In this document: positions 2,813 through 27,505 of the stretch, in pieces | Position numbering within the stretch: position 1 is the first letter of the stretch | How the letters are laid out: each line of letters opens with the position of its first letter | From: a virus | Direction: 5' to 3' (one strand) | DNA length: 34,890 nucleotides | IMG/VR virus record: IMGVR_UViG_3300044844_000770 | Coordinates: 1 to 34,890 of that record | The notes under the pieces: model-generated | Database searches by the model: none | What the model was told of the DNA's origin: nothing | The model's input: the letters and a program-made list of their open reading frames with translations, nothing else | Position numbers and translations under genes: made by a program

Positions 2813-2837
2813 CTCTCGCGGCGGTCTGTGGTAGGGT
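2809..2837 (+). promoter_or_regulatory. Promoter with extended -10, probably giving a leaderless mRNA
   Basis: A -35-like GTGACT (2809-2814), a 17-bp spacer and the -10 hexamer TAGGGT (2832-2837) preceded by TG at 2829-2830. The expected transcription start, about 7 bases after the -10, falls on the ATG at 2844. No Shine-Dalgarno sequence lies between the -10 and the ATG. Two other starts in this genome (23925 and 32088) have the same arrangement. Confidence 0.55.
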
Positions 2838-2843
2838 GTCGCC

Positions 2844-3881
2844 ATGACCGCGCGAAAGCTCATCACGGGACTCTCTCATCGATTCCGCTGGGCGGCTCCG
2901 GATGGCTACGTCGTCGCGGCTCCGTCTCTCGTCGTCGACTGGCCCGCGGGGTCTCAGACCTACGCGCTCACGGCGACCAGGTCTCCCGATACGGTCTCGG
3001 CTATCTCCGCGGACCGTCGCTCGCTCACGGTTACATGGGGCCTCTCGGGGTCATTCGCGGCGCTGTCTGCGATAGGCTCTCCGTCTCCCGCGGTCCTCCG
3101 CGGAGAGGGCATCGTCGGCGCTCCGGTGCGGGTCGTCCGCGTCGTCTCCATCGGCGCGGGGACGGGCGTCCTCGAGCTCGCGGAGGCGCTCCCTCTCCCG
3201 GTCGACATCGTGACGTCGAGCCCGACCCTCTACTGGTCGGAATACTCGGCGACCATCCCGTCCGGAGACCTCCCGGCGACTCCGACGCGGGGTATCCGCT
3301 GGACCGTCGACTACACGGCCTCGGACCCTATCAGCGGGGAAGCCGTCGACTATCGTCGAGACCGAGACGTCCTCCACGTCGTCGCGATGGCATTCGGGAC
3401 GGAGCTCGGGGACGCGGACCTCCTCGGCTACGTCCCGGACCTCCGGACTCGTCCGGTCGGTCAATCGAGCTGGAGAGCCCAGCGGGAGGCGGCGCTCGAC
3501 GAGCTCATCGGGCTAATCCGGACGCGCATCGCTCCGCGCGTCGAGGACGTTCTCCCGGGTCGAGCGTTCGCGCGCTCCCATGCCTACCTCGCGGCGGCGA
3601 ACATCCTCGACGGGACGATGGTCGGAGGACAGGACCGGACGACCCTCGCGACCTACTACCGGGAGCGGGCGGTCGCGGAGCTCGAGGCTCAACTCGCCCT
3701 CGTCGACTGGTCCGACCTCGACCGTAACGGGGAGGTCGACCCAGGCGAACAACTCGCGGCGGTCGTCTCGCGGATGACCTCACGCATCGGCTCGACCTTC
3801 ACGAATCGCGGGGTCGTCGACTTTGCTCCGGACGCGGCTCCCTATCCCATCGACCGCGCTCGCGTAACGGACGAGCGCTAA
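2844..3881 (+). CDS. Putative head-tail connector protein with an EF-hand-like loop
   Basis: A 345-residue protein between the minor head protein and the tail completion protein. The N-terminal ~200 residues are beta-rich; residues about 205-310 are helical, the pattern of head-tail adaptor proteins. Residues 291-302 (DLDRNGEVDPGE) match an EF-hand calcium loop: Asp1, Asp3, Asn5, Gly6, hydrophobic position 8 and Glu12. A bound ion might stabilise the connector. The start ATG 2844 lies 7 bases after the -10 hexamer TAGGGT, so translation may be leaderless. The stop overlaps the next ATG (TAATG). The connector role is inferred from order, not from a recognised family. Confidence 0.6.
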   Translation: MTARKLITGLSHRFRWAAPDGYVVAAPSLVVDWPAGSQTYALTATRSPDTVSAISADRRSLTVTWGLSGSFAALSAIGSPSPAVLRGEGIVGAPVRVVRVVSIGAGTGVLELAEALPLPVDIVTSSPTLYWSEYSATIPSGDLPATPTRGIRWTVDYTASDPISGEAVDYRRDRDVLHVVAMAFGTELGDADLLGYVPDLRTRPVGQSSWRAQREAALDELIGLIRTRIAPRVEDVLPGRAFARSHAYLAAANILDGTMVGGQDRTTLATYYRERAVAELEAQLALVDWSDLDRNGEVDPGEQLAAVVSRMTSRIGSTFTNRGVVDFAPDAAPYPIDRARVTDER

Positions 3882-20100: not shown

Positions 20101-20882
20101 GAAAGCTCATCACGGAGGAGGATATCGTCTGGGTCGATGCGTGGGCGGTCGAGATGCGGAGGCTCATCGCGGAGCGCGGTCAATCGGGCCCGCCTCGCCC
20201 TCTTAGCTGGGGAGACGTCCGGGTCGAGGCGGAGGGTCGGGTCTGCGTCTGGACCGCGCCTAAGTGTCAGGTCTGCGGCGGGCTCGGCTACGATACCTCG
20301 ACGGGCGAGCGGTGTCCCTGCCGGGGTCCGCATGACGGCGGGGTCATGTGGCGTGTCCACGCCCTCAATAACGCCCGCATCCCGGCGAAGTGTATCCAGC
20401 GGACCTCCCGCGACATGCTCTCGTCGACGGCGAAGTGGGTCGAGGAATGGCAGCCGTCGGCGCGCGGCTACATCCTCCTCTCAGACCCGGGCACGGGGAA
20501 GACTCACTACATGGCGGCGATGGTCCTCGCCTTTATCGAGAGGAGCGTAAGGGCTCGGATGCTCGACTGGCCCACCTTCCTGAGGGAGCGACGGGCGGCG
20601 CTCGGGAATCAAGTCCGGCTCGACGCTCAGCTCGACATCATCCAGACCGCTCCGGTCCTCTGTATCGACGAGCTCGCTCGAGAGCGGGAGACCCAGTGGA
20701 CGGAGGACGTCCTCGACGAGGTCATCGAGGCCCGGTATCAGAGCGGACGGACGACCATCATCGCCTCGAATGCCAAGCCGGACGGGTTCGAGGCCTACAT
20801 GGGCCCGCGCCTCTACTCCCGGCTCGTCAGCATGGCCCGGGTCGTCGAGTTCCGAGGCATCGACCAGAGGCGGGGGCAGTGA
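20097..20882 (+). CDS. DnaC/IstB-like AAA+ helicase loader
   Basis: A 261-residue protein. I place the start at TTG 20097, which overlaps the previous stop (TTGA) and has GGGAGGA about 8 bases upstream; upstream in-frame codons lie inside the previous gene. Residues 57-75 hold C-x2-C-x12-C-x-C, a probable zinc site. Walker A is SDPGTGKT (129-136), Walker B VLCIDEL (187-193), and TTIIASNAKPDGF followed by RLYSRLV is a sensor-1 and arginine-finger-like part. This order is that of DnaC-type loaders, which place the replicative helicase at an origin with the initiator (18486). No phage helicase was found, so the host helicase is presumably used. Confidence 0.85.
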   Translation: MRKLITEEDIVWVDAWAVEMRRLIAERGQSGPPRPLSWGDVRVEAEGRVCVWTAPKCQVCGGLGYDTSTGERCPCRGPHDGGVMWRVHALNNARIPAKCIQRTSRDMLSSTAKWVEEWQPSARGYILLSDPGTGKTHYMAAMVLAFIERSVRARMLDWPTFLRERRAALGNQVRLDAQLDIIQTAPVLCIDELARERETQWTEDVLDEVIEARYQSGRTTIIASNAKPDGFEAYMGPRLYSRLVSMARVVEFRGIDQRRGQ

Positions 20883-21808
20883 ATGAGCTGGCACTATTCG
20901 CGGGCGCTGGAGGAGGCATCCTCGGCGGGAGGATTCTCGGATGGCGTACTGTTTGCGCTGTCGAGTGGGACGAGTACGCCCGAGCCGTCCTCATGTCTCG
21001 ACAGGACGATGGAAGCCTCGAGCCGTTCCCCATTTGGGACGACGTCAGGACATTCGACGGGACCCCGTGGAGAGGCGTCGTCGACGTCGTCTCCGGAGGT
21101 TTCCCGTGTCAGGACATCAGCACAGCAGGCAAGGGAGCGGGAATCACTGGGGAGCGGTCCGGACTCTGGCGGGAGATGGCTCGCATCATTCGCGAGGTTC
21201 GACCGCAATTCGTCTTTGTGGAAAACTCCCCAGCTCTTACTGGTCGAGGACTCGACGTTGTCCTCGGAGACCTGGCCTCGCTCGGGTACGATGCGGAATG
21301 GGGTGTGCTGGGAGCGTCCTCCGTTGGCGCTCCTCATCGACGCGAGCGAATCTGGATTCTCGCGCGCCTCGATTCCGACTCCGACGGCGGGCGATGCGAA
21401 AAGTTCGGGAAGTCGACAGGCGGAGGGGAGTCGCGCCCATTCCGGGATCAGCCTGACGGACTATGTGAGACACGACGGCGGGCGCGGTCGGATGTACCCG
21501 ACTCCGACGGTCGACGCGGCGACGGAGCGAACGAAGGAATACGCTCAAGGCGGGACGAGTCTGTCGCTCGCGGTCCGGATGCTCCCGACTCCGACGAGCT
21601 CGGAGCACAAGTACCGACTACAGGGCGACTCTCAGCAATCGAAATGCCTGAACGCTCTCGCTGGTGGAGCGCTGAACCCGAGGTGGGTCGAGTGGCTCAT
21701 GGGGTGGCCTCTCGGGTGGACCGCCTTAAATGCCTCGGAAACGGACAGGTACCACAAGCGGCGGCGGCGGCGGTCGCGGCCCTTGCAAGGCGGGGAAGAT
21801 GGGCATGA
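20879..21808 (+). CDS. C5-cytosine DNA methyltransferase (Dcm-like)
   Basis: A 309-residue protein starting at GTG 20879 (GTGA overlap). Motif I is LALFAGAGGGILGG (4-17); motif IV GGFPCQDIS with catalytic Cys77; motif VI VENSP (114-118); motif VIII HRRERIWIL (153-161); motif X CLGNGQVPQAAAAA near the C-terminus. It would methylate cytosine at C5, presumably to evade host restriction, as no endonuclease is next to it. Residues about 165-265, where a target recognition domain belongs, are a low-complexity Asp/Gly/Arg/Ser stretch. Roughly a third of codons in the first half end in A or T (about 42 of 120 by hand count, against 12 of 60 in recT and 12 of 60 in the helicase loader). A second frame is open along the whole gene (next entry). 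Confidence 0.88.
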   Translation: MNELALFAGAGGGILGGRILGWRTVCAVEWDEYARAVLMSRQDDGSLEPFPIWDDVRTFDGTPWRGVVDVVSGGFPCQDISTAGKGAGITGERSGLWREMARIIREVRPQFVFVENSPALTGRGLDVVLGDLASLGYDAEWGVLGASSVGAPHRRERIWILARLDSDSDGGRCEKFGKSTGGGESRPFRDQPDGLCETRRRARSDVPDSDGRRGDGANEGIRSRRDESVARGPDAPDSDELGAQVPTTGRLSAIEMPERSRWWSAEPEVGRVAHGVASRVDRLKCLGNGQVPQAAAAAVAALARRGRWA

Positions 21809-21812
21809 ATGA
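20883..21812 (+). CDS. Possible dual-coded protein co-extensive with the Dcm gene (+1 frame)
   Basis: ATG 20883 opens a 309-codon frame that ends at TGA 21810-21812, four bases after the Dcm stop. Its product has regular features: SFARFDRNSSLWKTPQ (102-117), ETWPRSGTMRNG (129-140), three PTPT motifs (165, 206, 235) each followed by small polar residues, and GGALNPRWVEWLMGWPLGWT (261-280). From memory, such strings recur in predicted phage proteins linked to cytosine methyltransferases; this is unchecked. Shadow frames are long in this GC-rich genome, which argues for caution. In its favour, the motifs are ordered and the Dcm frame is degenerate exactly where this frame looks most protein-like. 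Function unknown. Confidence 0.42.
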   Translation: MSWHYSRALEEASSAGGFSDGVLFALSSGTSTPEPSSCLDRTMEASSRSPFGTTSGHSTGPRGEASSTSSPEVSRVRTSAQQARERESLGSGPDSGGRWLASFARFDRNSSLWKTPQLLLVEDSTLSSETWPRSGTMRNGVCWERPPLALLIDASESGFSRASIPTPTAGDAKSSGSRQAEGSRAHSGISLTDYVRHDGGRGRMYPTPTVDAATERTKEYAQGGTSLSLAVRMLPTPTSSEHKYRLQGDSQQSKCLNALAGGALNPRWVEWLMGWPLGWTALNASETDRYHKRRRRRSRPLQGGEDGHE

Positions 21813-24449: not shown

Positions 24450-24888
24450 GCGTCTCCCTCTCGCTCTCTTCCTCGCCCTCGTCCCGGCCTCGGTCGCGGC
24501 GCAAGATGCCTCGGGCATCTATGGCAACGTCTACGGATGCACGGTCAAGGCGTTCGCCTCGGGGAGCTGGACTCAGCTCGCGTCGAGCGACCTGAAGGAC
24601 ACGTCGACGGGCGCGGCGCTCTCGGCGGGTCTCTACCTCTCCTCGCTCTCCATCGTCTCGCGGGATGCGTGGGGCGGGGCGTCGGCGTTCTTGTGCCTCG
24701 GGCCCTCGGCGACTTGTCCGGCCTCGACGACGGATGCTCCGCGCATCGACGGCGGCACGGCCAAGAGCATCGAGGTCCGCGGCGTCCTCTCGGGTCCGAG
24801 CGCGGCTCCGATGACGACCCTCGCGATTCGTGGCAACGGGGCGAGCGCTACCCTCGAGGTCTGCGCCCATTACCGAAAGGCTCCGTGA
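24442..24888 (+). CDS. Secreted/periplasmic protein of unknown function
   Basis: A 148-residue protein with a Sec signal peptide: basic start (MTKR), hydrophobic core [10 protein letters not shown], and VPASVAA followed by QDAS, giving a likely cleavage after residue about 22. The mature part is small, Ser/Ala/Gly-rich and strand-like with four Cys ([26 protein letters not shown]), which would form two disulfides outside the cytoplasm. It lies between endolysin and fibre genes. An exported phage protein could act in lysis, in superinfection exclusion or as an accessory of the virion surface. I do not recognise a family. Confidence 0.62.
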
Positions 24889-24889
24889 C

Positions 24890-27505
24890 ATGGCGGGGAC
24901 GACGACATCATTCCCGGGCGCTCCGGGTCCCGCTGGTCCCGCTGGTCCCGAGGGTCCTCAGGGTCCGGAGGGTCCGGTCGGTCCCGAGGGTCCTCAGGGT
25001 CCGCAAGGCGTCCAGGGCGACCCCGGGCCTCAGGGCTCGGTCGGACCTCAGGGCCCGCAAGGTGTCCAGGGCGAGACGGGTCCGGCGGGCGCGCAAGGTC
25101 CCGAGGGCCCGCAAGGTCCGCAAGGTGACACGGGCTCGACGGGCGCGACGGGCGCTCAGGGTCCTCAGGGCATTCAGGGCGTACAAGGCGAGCAAGGTCT
25201 GACGGGCGCGGCGGGCGCTGACGGCGACCGATACCAGACGACGAGCTCGACGTCGCTCACGATCGGGAACGGGACGAAGACCCTCACGGTCGAGACGGCG
25301 CTCGACTACTCCGTGACCCAGTCCGTCACCATCGCCTACGACATCGACGACCACATGCACGGGGAGGTCGTCTCCTACGATGACGCGACGGGCGTCCTCG
25401 TCGTCGATGTCGCGCATCATAGCGGGAGCGGGACGTTCTCCGCGTGGGTCGTCAACCTCAGCGGGGCGGTCGGCGCGGTCGGTCCGGCGGGTCCCGAGGG
25501 TCCTCAGGGTCCGCAAGGTATCCAGGGCGAGCAGGGCATCCAGGGCGCTCAGGGCGTTCAGGGCGAGACCGGGCCTCAGGGCGACACGGGCCCCGCGGGT
25601 CCTCAGGGCATCCAGGGCGAGACCGGGCCCGCGGGCGCTCAGGGTCCGACCGGACCTCAGGGTCCCCAGGGCGAAACGGGGGCGGCGGGGACGACTCTGG
25701 TGACGGGTCTCACGGACCGATATGAGGAGCTCCCGTCTCAGACGTTCTCCGAGTTCGCTCACGGAAGCCTCGTCGCGGCCTCCCCGACGCGGGACATCCA
25801 GACAGCCATCGACGCGACTCCGGTCGGTCCGGCCTGTCAGGTCATCGTCGGACCCGGCTCCTACTCGGGCGCCACGGTCACGATCCCGACCGGCCGCAAC
25901 AACATCGCCATCATCGGACCGAGCGCGGGCGACTTCGGCGGCACGATTGCCTCGCTCAGCAGCAGCCGCGGCCTCACCATCGGCAACAACGCCGTGCGCG
26001 TGCGCATCGTCAATCTCCAGATTGAGGGGCTCACGACCATCTCGACGACGGGCGCGGGCGTGCATCGTATCGAGCGCTGTCAGCTCGGGGGCGGGCTCTC
26101 CGTCGGCGCTATCTCGTCATACGTCTATATCGTCGGATGTACGCTCGGGAGCGTGACGATTGCCGCAGGGTTTACGGGCGTCGTCGTTATCGACCGTTGT
26201 CAGTTCGACGCGGGCGCGACGCTGACGAATAGCACGCTCCAGACTCGGCTCCTCATCTCGGATAGCGCGGGCCTCGCGTCGGCTCCGACCTCGAGCGCGA
26301 TTCTCAATGGGCGCTTTCAACTCGCGAGCGGGCTCACGGCCTACTACGCGAATGGAGCGGCGCTCCTCGGCGCGGCGCTAACGTCGGTCAACGGCTTGAC
26401 CCCAGCGGCGGACCGCCTCCCCTACTACACGGGGGCGAGCTCCGCGGCTCTGGCGACGCTCACGCCATACGCGCGGACGCTCCTCGACGATGCGGACGCG
26501 GCGACGGCTCGGACGACCCTCGGCGCTCAGGCCTCCGACGCGACGCTGACGGCTCTCGCGGGTCTCACGACCGCGGCGGACCGTCTCCCGTACTTCACGG
26601 GCGTCGATGTCGCGGCGGTCGCGACTCTGACTCCCTACGCCCGGACGCTCCTCGACGATGCGGACGCGGCGACCGCTCGAGCGACGCTCGGTCTCACGAC
26701 CGGGACGAGCGCGGGCAACGTGGTCGTGCTCGATGGCGCGGCTCAACTCCCGGCGGTCGATGGCTCTCAGCTTACGGGCGTCGTCGCATCGCCCTACACG
26801 GCGGATGCGTGGGACTTCCAGTGGAGCGCGGCGGCTGGAAGTCCGGCGACGCTCGCTAACTACACTGGCTCGGCGAACATCTCCGCGGTGACGGTCGTCG
26901 GCGGCGGCTCATTCGGCGGCGCGGCGGTGACTTACGAGACCGTTTCATGCTGGGAGTTCACTCCGACGGCTGTCAGTGAGCGACAGGAGCTCGCGGTCCA
27001 GCCCGCGACGCCCGTCGATGCGTGGGAGCTCCGGGTTCGCGTGTGGCTCCCGGGTGAGGACGCGACGGGGACGCCCCAGCATGTCGGCGCGCTCGGGAAG
27101 CAAGTCGGGACCAACACCCCGCAGTTCCTCGCGGGGGCGTCGATTCTCGGCGCATGTCGTCAGAGCGGGACCGCGGAGGAGGTCAAGATTGACACGGCGG
27201 ACATCCGTCAGAGCTGGGTCACTCTCACCATCCGAGCGACTCCGGTATTCAGCGCGACGACCCCGACTAACTGGGCTCAAATCGCCTATCAGCTATGGTG
27301 CGGCGAGCATCTCGTCGGCACATGGAATGGGGCGAACGTCACGGCGGGGAGCCTCGCGGCGGGCCTCATCCGGTTCGGCAAGTCGACCGGGACCGGGACG
27401 CGGGTCATGCGTATCGCGTCGCTCCAATGGCGGTCCGGCAATAATCAGGCGACTCCGGCTTACACGTTCCGGGGTCGCGGATTCGGCGGCGGAGGTCCAG
27501 CATGA
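24890..27505 (+). CDS. Collagen-like tail fibre / receptor-binding protein
   Basis: An 871-residue protein, start ATG 24890. Two Gly-X-Y regions (residues about 10-114, 35 triplets, and 192-269, 26 triplets) are separated by a ~77-residue beta domain ([18 protein letters not shown], then ...[16 protein letters not shown]). After the second comes a beta-helix-like segment (about 300-450: [41 protein letters not shown]), then the fibre repeat [10 protein letters not shown]...[11 protein letters not shown] twice, a beta-rich distal part and a Gly-rich end. Collagen-like triple helices give long stiff stalks, so this is likely the trimeric host-recognition fibre. It is placed with lysis genes, away from the tail operon. 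Confidence 0.8.
26405..26691 (+). repeat. Tandem repeat in the fibre gene
   Basis: A unit of 168 bp (56 codons) begins at 26405 and again at 26573. Both copies begin with GCGGCGGACC and share the block CTCCTCGACGATGCGGACGC; the protein repeat is AADRLPYxTG... [15 protein letters not shown]. Copies diverge elsewhere. Repeats of this kind are common in phage fibres and allow length change by recombination. Confidence 0.75.

Follow-up and report, generated by a model that had tools for sequence, protein, structure and literature searches.

Two same-strand frames that run together over nearly the whole of one 309-codon gene very probably encode a single cytosine-5 DNA methyltransferase as two polypeptides, alpha and beta. 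Judged from the placement of the conserved motifs, alpha would supply the large domain of the enzyme (motifs I-VIII and X) and beta its small domain (target recognition and motif IX). The second frame would not encode an unrelated protein, but the half of this enzyme that recognises DNA. The window, by which we mean the whole 34,890-base IMG/VR virus record, contains genes for head, portal, terminase, tail fibre, RecT-like, DnaC-like and RecU proteins, which indicates that its source is a tailed phage. The earlier note had described two co-extensive frames starting at GTG 20879 and ATG 20883; both are open (Table 1), every motif quoted for the second frame is present, and WVEWLMGWPLGWT in beta does share its bases with SAEPEVGRVAHGV in alpha. 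The third positions of the methyltransferase frame are indeed unusual, with a GC3 of 0.63, compared with 0.75-0.90 for almost every other gene in the window. The alpha frame ends with TGA at 21806-21808 and the beta frame with TGA at 21810-21812. The pair lies directly 3' of the DnaC-like gene, whose own TGA (20880-20882) overlaps the alpha GTG and abuts the beta ATG.

Table 1. Features of the alpha/beta locus, in window positions.
Feature	Positions	Strand	Basis or remark
Alpha: C5 methyltransferase, putative large-domain subunit, 309 aa, GTG start	20879..21808	+	PF00145, M.HhaI alignment, AlphaFold
Beta: putative small-domain subunit (target recognition and motif IX), 309 aa, ATG start	20883..21812	+	phrog_1008, +1 openness, conserved start
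Two adjacent start codons GTGAATGAG	20879..20887	+	alpha codon 2 choice
Alpha motif IV PCQ (catalytic Cys)	21104..21112	+	residues 76-78, invariant in alignment A2
Beta segment FDRNSSLWKTPQ...SETWPRSGTMRNG over alpha motifs V-VIII	21195..21302	+	P132, G135, G140 invariant in alignment A1
Alpha motif VIII region HRRERIWILA	21335..21364	+	residues 153-162; Pfam match stops at 164
Beta variable region, inferred target-recognition domain	21354..21668	+	omega_beta 0.34; exchanged between near-identical genes
Alpha linker: disordered, amino-acid-neutral, only kept open	21371..21664	+	omega_alpha 1.06; 1 stop vs 218 expected
PTPT blocks in beta variable region	21375-21386, 21498-21509, 21585-21596	+	
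Beta motif IX LNPRWVEWLMGWPLGWT	21672..21722	+	L264-W275 nearly invariant
Alpha motif X (RVDRLKCLGNGQVPQ and C-terminal helix)	21713..21793	+	residues 279-305; phrog_1008 290-319 match

The second frame is kept open

Stop codons scattered through the +1 frame of relatives, which the earlier note had set against a second gene, are not what we find. The 137 distinct related loci hold 2 such stops where about 560 are expected from synonymous shuffles, which keep each alpha protein and its codon use constant. The +1 frame is open in 135 of these loci against about 1.9 expected, whereas the +2 frame, our matched control, shows no avoidance (1735 stops observed, 1554 expected); these shuffle statistics ignore kinship among the loci. 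The sole exceptions, L018 and L021, carry one in-frame stop each in the tested region, that of L021 at codon 142; decay, a sequencing error or a beta start inside the frame could account for them. Loci retrieved by the alpha protein alone give the same picture, with the +1 frame open in 68 of 70. Over five regions of the 63 non-redundant loci from this retrieval we counted 0, 0, 0, 1 and 1 stops, against 34, 40, 51, 62 and 71 expected; the avoidance spans every region from codon 2 onward. Within the window, alpha is the only one of 21 genes tested whose +1 frame exceeds the length found in shuffles (0/400; p at least 0.30 for the other 20), and a separate shuffle puts the chance of this frame being open at 0.5%. 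The z-scores of +1 conservation against shuffles were dropped as main evidence, because shared ancestry makes those of the +2 frame high as well; stop avoidance and the classes of substitution in close pairs are used in their place.

One could assume that beta yields no product and is a shadow frame, which high G+C content and the constraint on the alpha protein happen to leave open. The record is rich in G+C and does contain long shadow frames, and several +2 frames have modest p values. However, neither the number of open loci nor the absence of avoidance in the control frame fits this assumption, to which we give next to no credence.

Elsewhere in the window, positions 2828-3727 and 2844-3881 form a second same-strand pair of long frames. 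Its +2 frame is open for 293 codons, a run that few synonymous shuffles exceed (p 0.013, one of 42 tests) and that may be due to chance. Positions 24830-27505 encode a long protein that resembles tail fibres and has collagen triple-helix repeats (PF01391, 5.8e-27).

Adjacent start codons

The beta start codon, at base 5 of alpha and thus four bases after the alpha start, is kept in 121 of 124 loci (ATG in 110, GTG in 11). Residue 2 of alpha varies between Asn, Arg and His, yet 121 of 124 loci use AAT, CGT or CAT for it, and each of these codons preserves NTG for beta. Where residue 2 is Asn it is always written AAT (104/104), whereas Asn elsewhere is written AAC 690 times and AAT 400 times. 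Starts of beta further inside the frame, where ATG, GTG or TTG is common at codons 11, 54, 59, 67 and 68, were considered and are disfavoured by the openness from codon 2 and by the nearly fixed start at that codon. Translation would begin at GTG 20879 for alpha and at ATG 20883 for beta. Both starts probably share a ribosome-binding region, with coupling to the end of the gene upstream.

Selection changes frames along the gene

We classed the substitutions in close pairs by their effect on each frame. Over codons 3-95 alpha is strongly constrained (omega_alpha 0.16-0.24, with 0.16 in close pairs) and the amino-acid constraint on beta is weak (NN/NS 0.86-1.06; the SN/SS of 0.37-0.46 comes from few sites); despite this, the first third of the beta frame is never broken. 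Both frames are constrained over codons 96-164, where omega_beta is 0.40-0.79. In the variable region that follows, omega_beta is 0.34 and omega_alpha is 1.06 (62 pairs, 6.6 kb), the differences fall 323/330/797 on the first, second and third positions of beta codons, and stops in alpha are avoided (1 against 218 expected). The earlier note had found the second frame most protein-like where the methyltransferase frame turns to low complexity, and it is there that beta is constrained and alpha neutral. Together with the conserved start, this constraint also speaks against a frame without a product, and on comparative grounds we regard that explanation as already refuted.

Over codons 262-300 beta is strongly constrained (omega_beta 0.19-0.31 in close pairs). 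Beta dominates selection at WVEWLMGWPLGWT, and the constraint of motif X is back in alpha. Free synonymous change in the methyltransferase frame, which had been named as evidence against a second gene, is not seen, and codon choice over the motif is almost fixed. Conserved alpha residues with nearly fixed codons include E266 (GAA, 119/119), V272 (GTG, 118/118) and G136 (GGG, 124/124), and in the motif IX stretch another is written GCC in 120 of 120. The codon choice of conserved alpha residues at motif IX is set by beta. With homologues of both frames gathered and constraint measured frame by frame, the comparison supports the two coding frames that had been proposed, and shows both to be under purifying selection, in complementary regions.

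Alpha as the probable large domain

Pfam matches alpha to PF00145 (2.9e-33) over residues 4-164 only, M.HhaI aligns to it across profile positions 4-169, and the core of its AlphaFold model matches M.HhaI. Motifs I-VIII are present, with PCQ and ENS invariant, and motif X is found at residues 279-305 with a conserved GNGQVP. No match to a target-recognition domain or to motif IX was obtained within alpha by Pfam (4-164) or with M.HhaI (4-169). Residues 177-289, between the methyltransferase core and the ordered C-terminal helix, have pLDDT values below 50, and the helix itself (292-305) has values of 86-91. The neutrality of the intervening amino acids, together with the avoidance of stops, suggests that this stretch is a translated linker whose sequence is immaterial, provided that the frame remains open as far as motif X.

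An alternative explanation is that programmed frameshifting from alpha to beta and back to alpha yields a single fused protein. Two-frame layouts elsewhere are sometimes resolved by frameshifting, and a colinear order of motifs I-VIII, target recognition, IX and X would need frames 0, +1, +1 and 0. However, two shifts would be required, beta keeps a start of its own and an open frame over codons 2-160, both needless in a fused product, and alpha remains open throughout its neutral linker. We therefore consider a fused product very improbable.

Beta as the probable recognition half

Beta matches phrog_1008 ("DNA methyltransferase") at 1.1e-24 and has no match in Pfam. In nearly every case its variable region holds between one and six PTP blocks. 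Genes with 94-96% identity across their first 480 bases (L011 and L074, L132 and L152) have unrelated beta variable regions; this region is thus swapped, as expected of a target-recognition domain. Downstream of it, the nearly invariant LNPxWVEWLMGWP aligns (hhalign, E 1e-7) to motif IX of single-chain or fused phage enzymes, in which motif X is next in the same chain. In these fused forms Pfam places motif IX at the end (C-terminus) of PF00145, and beta therefore carries motif IX, which the alpha match lacks. The fused-type chain gp88 of Gordonia phage CheeseTouch matches PF00145 over residues 1-316 of 324; in a beta-type chain, gene 50 of Streptomyces phage Samy, the stretch lies at PF00145 270-322 with weak direct support from Pfam (E 0.2).

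The predicted model of beta is poor (pTM 0.24); Foldseek with this weak model found no fold, and the beta profile gave only chance matches among solved structures. Beta could thus be a separate protein outside the enzyme, for example an anti-restriction factor or a regulator, as it is without a structure and its conserved segment at codons 96-164 has no recognised counterpart in solved structures. This we consider improbable. Motif IX and a swapping variable region are found in beta and are both missing from alpha, and other phages hold motifs IX and X together: Dylan gp6 and Samy gene 50 do so as beta-type chains, CheeseTouch gp88 as an alpha-type chain.

The enzyme with one domain per frame that we favour would work as follows. 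Alpha would bind SAM and catalyse the transfer (motifs I-VIII), with the closing motif X helix tied to this core by the long disordered linker, and beta would contribute the variable target-recognition region and motif IX. Both chains are probably translated and would associate into one enzyme; the complex would methylate the phage DNA, most simply as a shield against host restriction.

Distribution and other arrangements

Among the 80 best bacterial loci retrieved by the beta motif, all contain alpha, and 79 have the same overlapping phase with beta one base ahead; the beta profile search found no free-standing beta gene among these 80. The loci include Proteobacteria, Verrucomicrobia, Acidobacteria, Planctomycetota, Chloroflexi, Spirochaetia, Patescibacteria and MAGs labelled archaeal. 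Alpha ends early in seven of them (L169, L185, L191, L212, L224, L228 and L247). On the evidence of the retrieved loci, the two-frame arrangement is present in hundreds of phage and bacterial sequences, usually annotated as one gene; in the RefSeq copy of E. coli PT62 only the alpha frame is annotated. In the plasmid-collection records NZ_CP043879.1 and NZ_CP092671.1 (Leptospira) and NZ_CP050417.1 (Acinetobacter), beta-frame matches also lie under an annotated DNA cytosine methyltransferase.

Several loci depart from this arrangement. In CheeseTouch motifs IX and X are both in alpha, and the +1 frame stops at codon 268, short of motif IX. A Gallionella MAG (L230:4001-4987) has the alpha and beta matches in one frame, the sole case in the 80 bacterial loci; the pattern looks like that of an indel fusing the front part of beta with the rear part of alpha. 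In Mycobacterium phage Llama (L163:1432-2191) and its relatives the alpha frame is split in two (gp74/gp75); an apparent indel swaps the alpha and beta frames in the middle of the gene, and the pair has probably decayed. In Samy (genes 49 and 50, L165:1326-2667) gene 50 probably starts further upstream than its annotated 1918, as its frame is open from 1549 and holds the conserved FDRSTSSWRTSQ...TWPKSG segment over gene 49.

A broader reading, which we put forward tentatively and would not yet count on, is that these loci form a broad, mostly unannotated class of phage and bacterial methyltransferases with an obligatory full-length same-strand overlap and one enzyme domain per frame. The overlap itself may be functional, with the adjacent starts setting the subunit ratio from one ribosome-binding region, target-recognition cassettes swapping in the second frame, and the beta segment over motifs V-VIII forming an extra domain that single-chain enzymes lack. 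To our knowledge, whole-length same-strand overlaps of prokaryotic genes have rarely been established, and the known ones mostly pair unrelated proteins. Here the two frames would be two halves of one enzyme, and selection can be traced as it switches frames along one gene. The half that should decide the specificity of the E. coli copy is missing from its RefSeq annotation, and prediction or cloning that starts only from the annotated gene can be expected to fail for an enzyme of this kind.

Comparison with known systems

In M.MpeI and M.SssI motifs I-VIII and a portion of X make up the large domain, motif IX and the target-recognition domain the small one (PMC5944983). The alpha/beta division coincides with this split, which suggests one structural domain per frame. 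C5 methyltransferases of two polypeptides are known, among them M.EcoHK31I and M.AquI (PMC3404938). M.AquI (CYCGRG) is likewise split into two chains, between motifs VIII and IX, and its small chain carries motifs IX-X (PMC3404938), whereas motif X of the window lies in alpha. The variable region of M.AquI is divided between its chains. In M.EcoHK31I (YGGCCR) the large chain has motifs I-VIII and X and the small chain motif IX (PMC3404938). This is the same division as between alpha and beta, the comparison being one of reported motifs. However, the target-recognition domain of M.EcoHK31I is assigned to the large chain (PMC3404938), whereas here the constrained and exchanged variable region is in beta and that of alpha is neutral. 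By motif placement the window pair would be a variant of the M.EcoHK31I arrangement, with a target-recognition position that differs from the one reported. A second chain in an overlapping alternative frame, as present here, may be a further likeness: Lee et al. (1995) reportedly found that the large-chain gene of M.EcoHK31I also encodes the small chain, read in another frame. That chain reportedly has about 176 aa and is therefore internal, whereas beta begins four bases after the alpha start and runs along the whole of alpha.

Our literature search found no description of such an overlap in phages. Mycobacterium phage Dylan (gp7/gp6) and Streptomyces phage Samy (49/50) have staggered, overlapping "DNA methylase" pairs, whose catalytic frame has motifs I-VIII as here and whose second chain has TWPxSGxMRNG, PTP blocks and motif IX like the beta of the window. 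Unlike in the window, alpha ends after motif VIII in these pairs, and beta starts inside alpha and carries both IX and X. PHROG families 363 and 116 (alpha) and 1008 (beta) match the two frames and are all labelled DNA methyltransferase; none of them mentions that one locus encodes both kinds in different frames. What appears to be new, compared with these systems, is the nearly complete co-extension of the two frames, the adjacent start codons, the exchange of putative target-recognition domains in the second frame, and the spread of the arrangement over phages and bacterial phyla.
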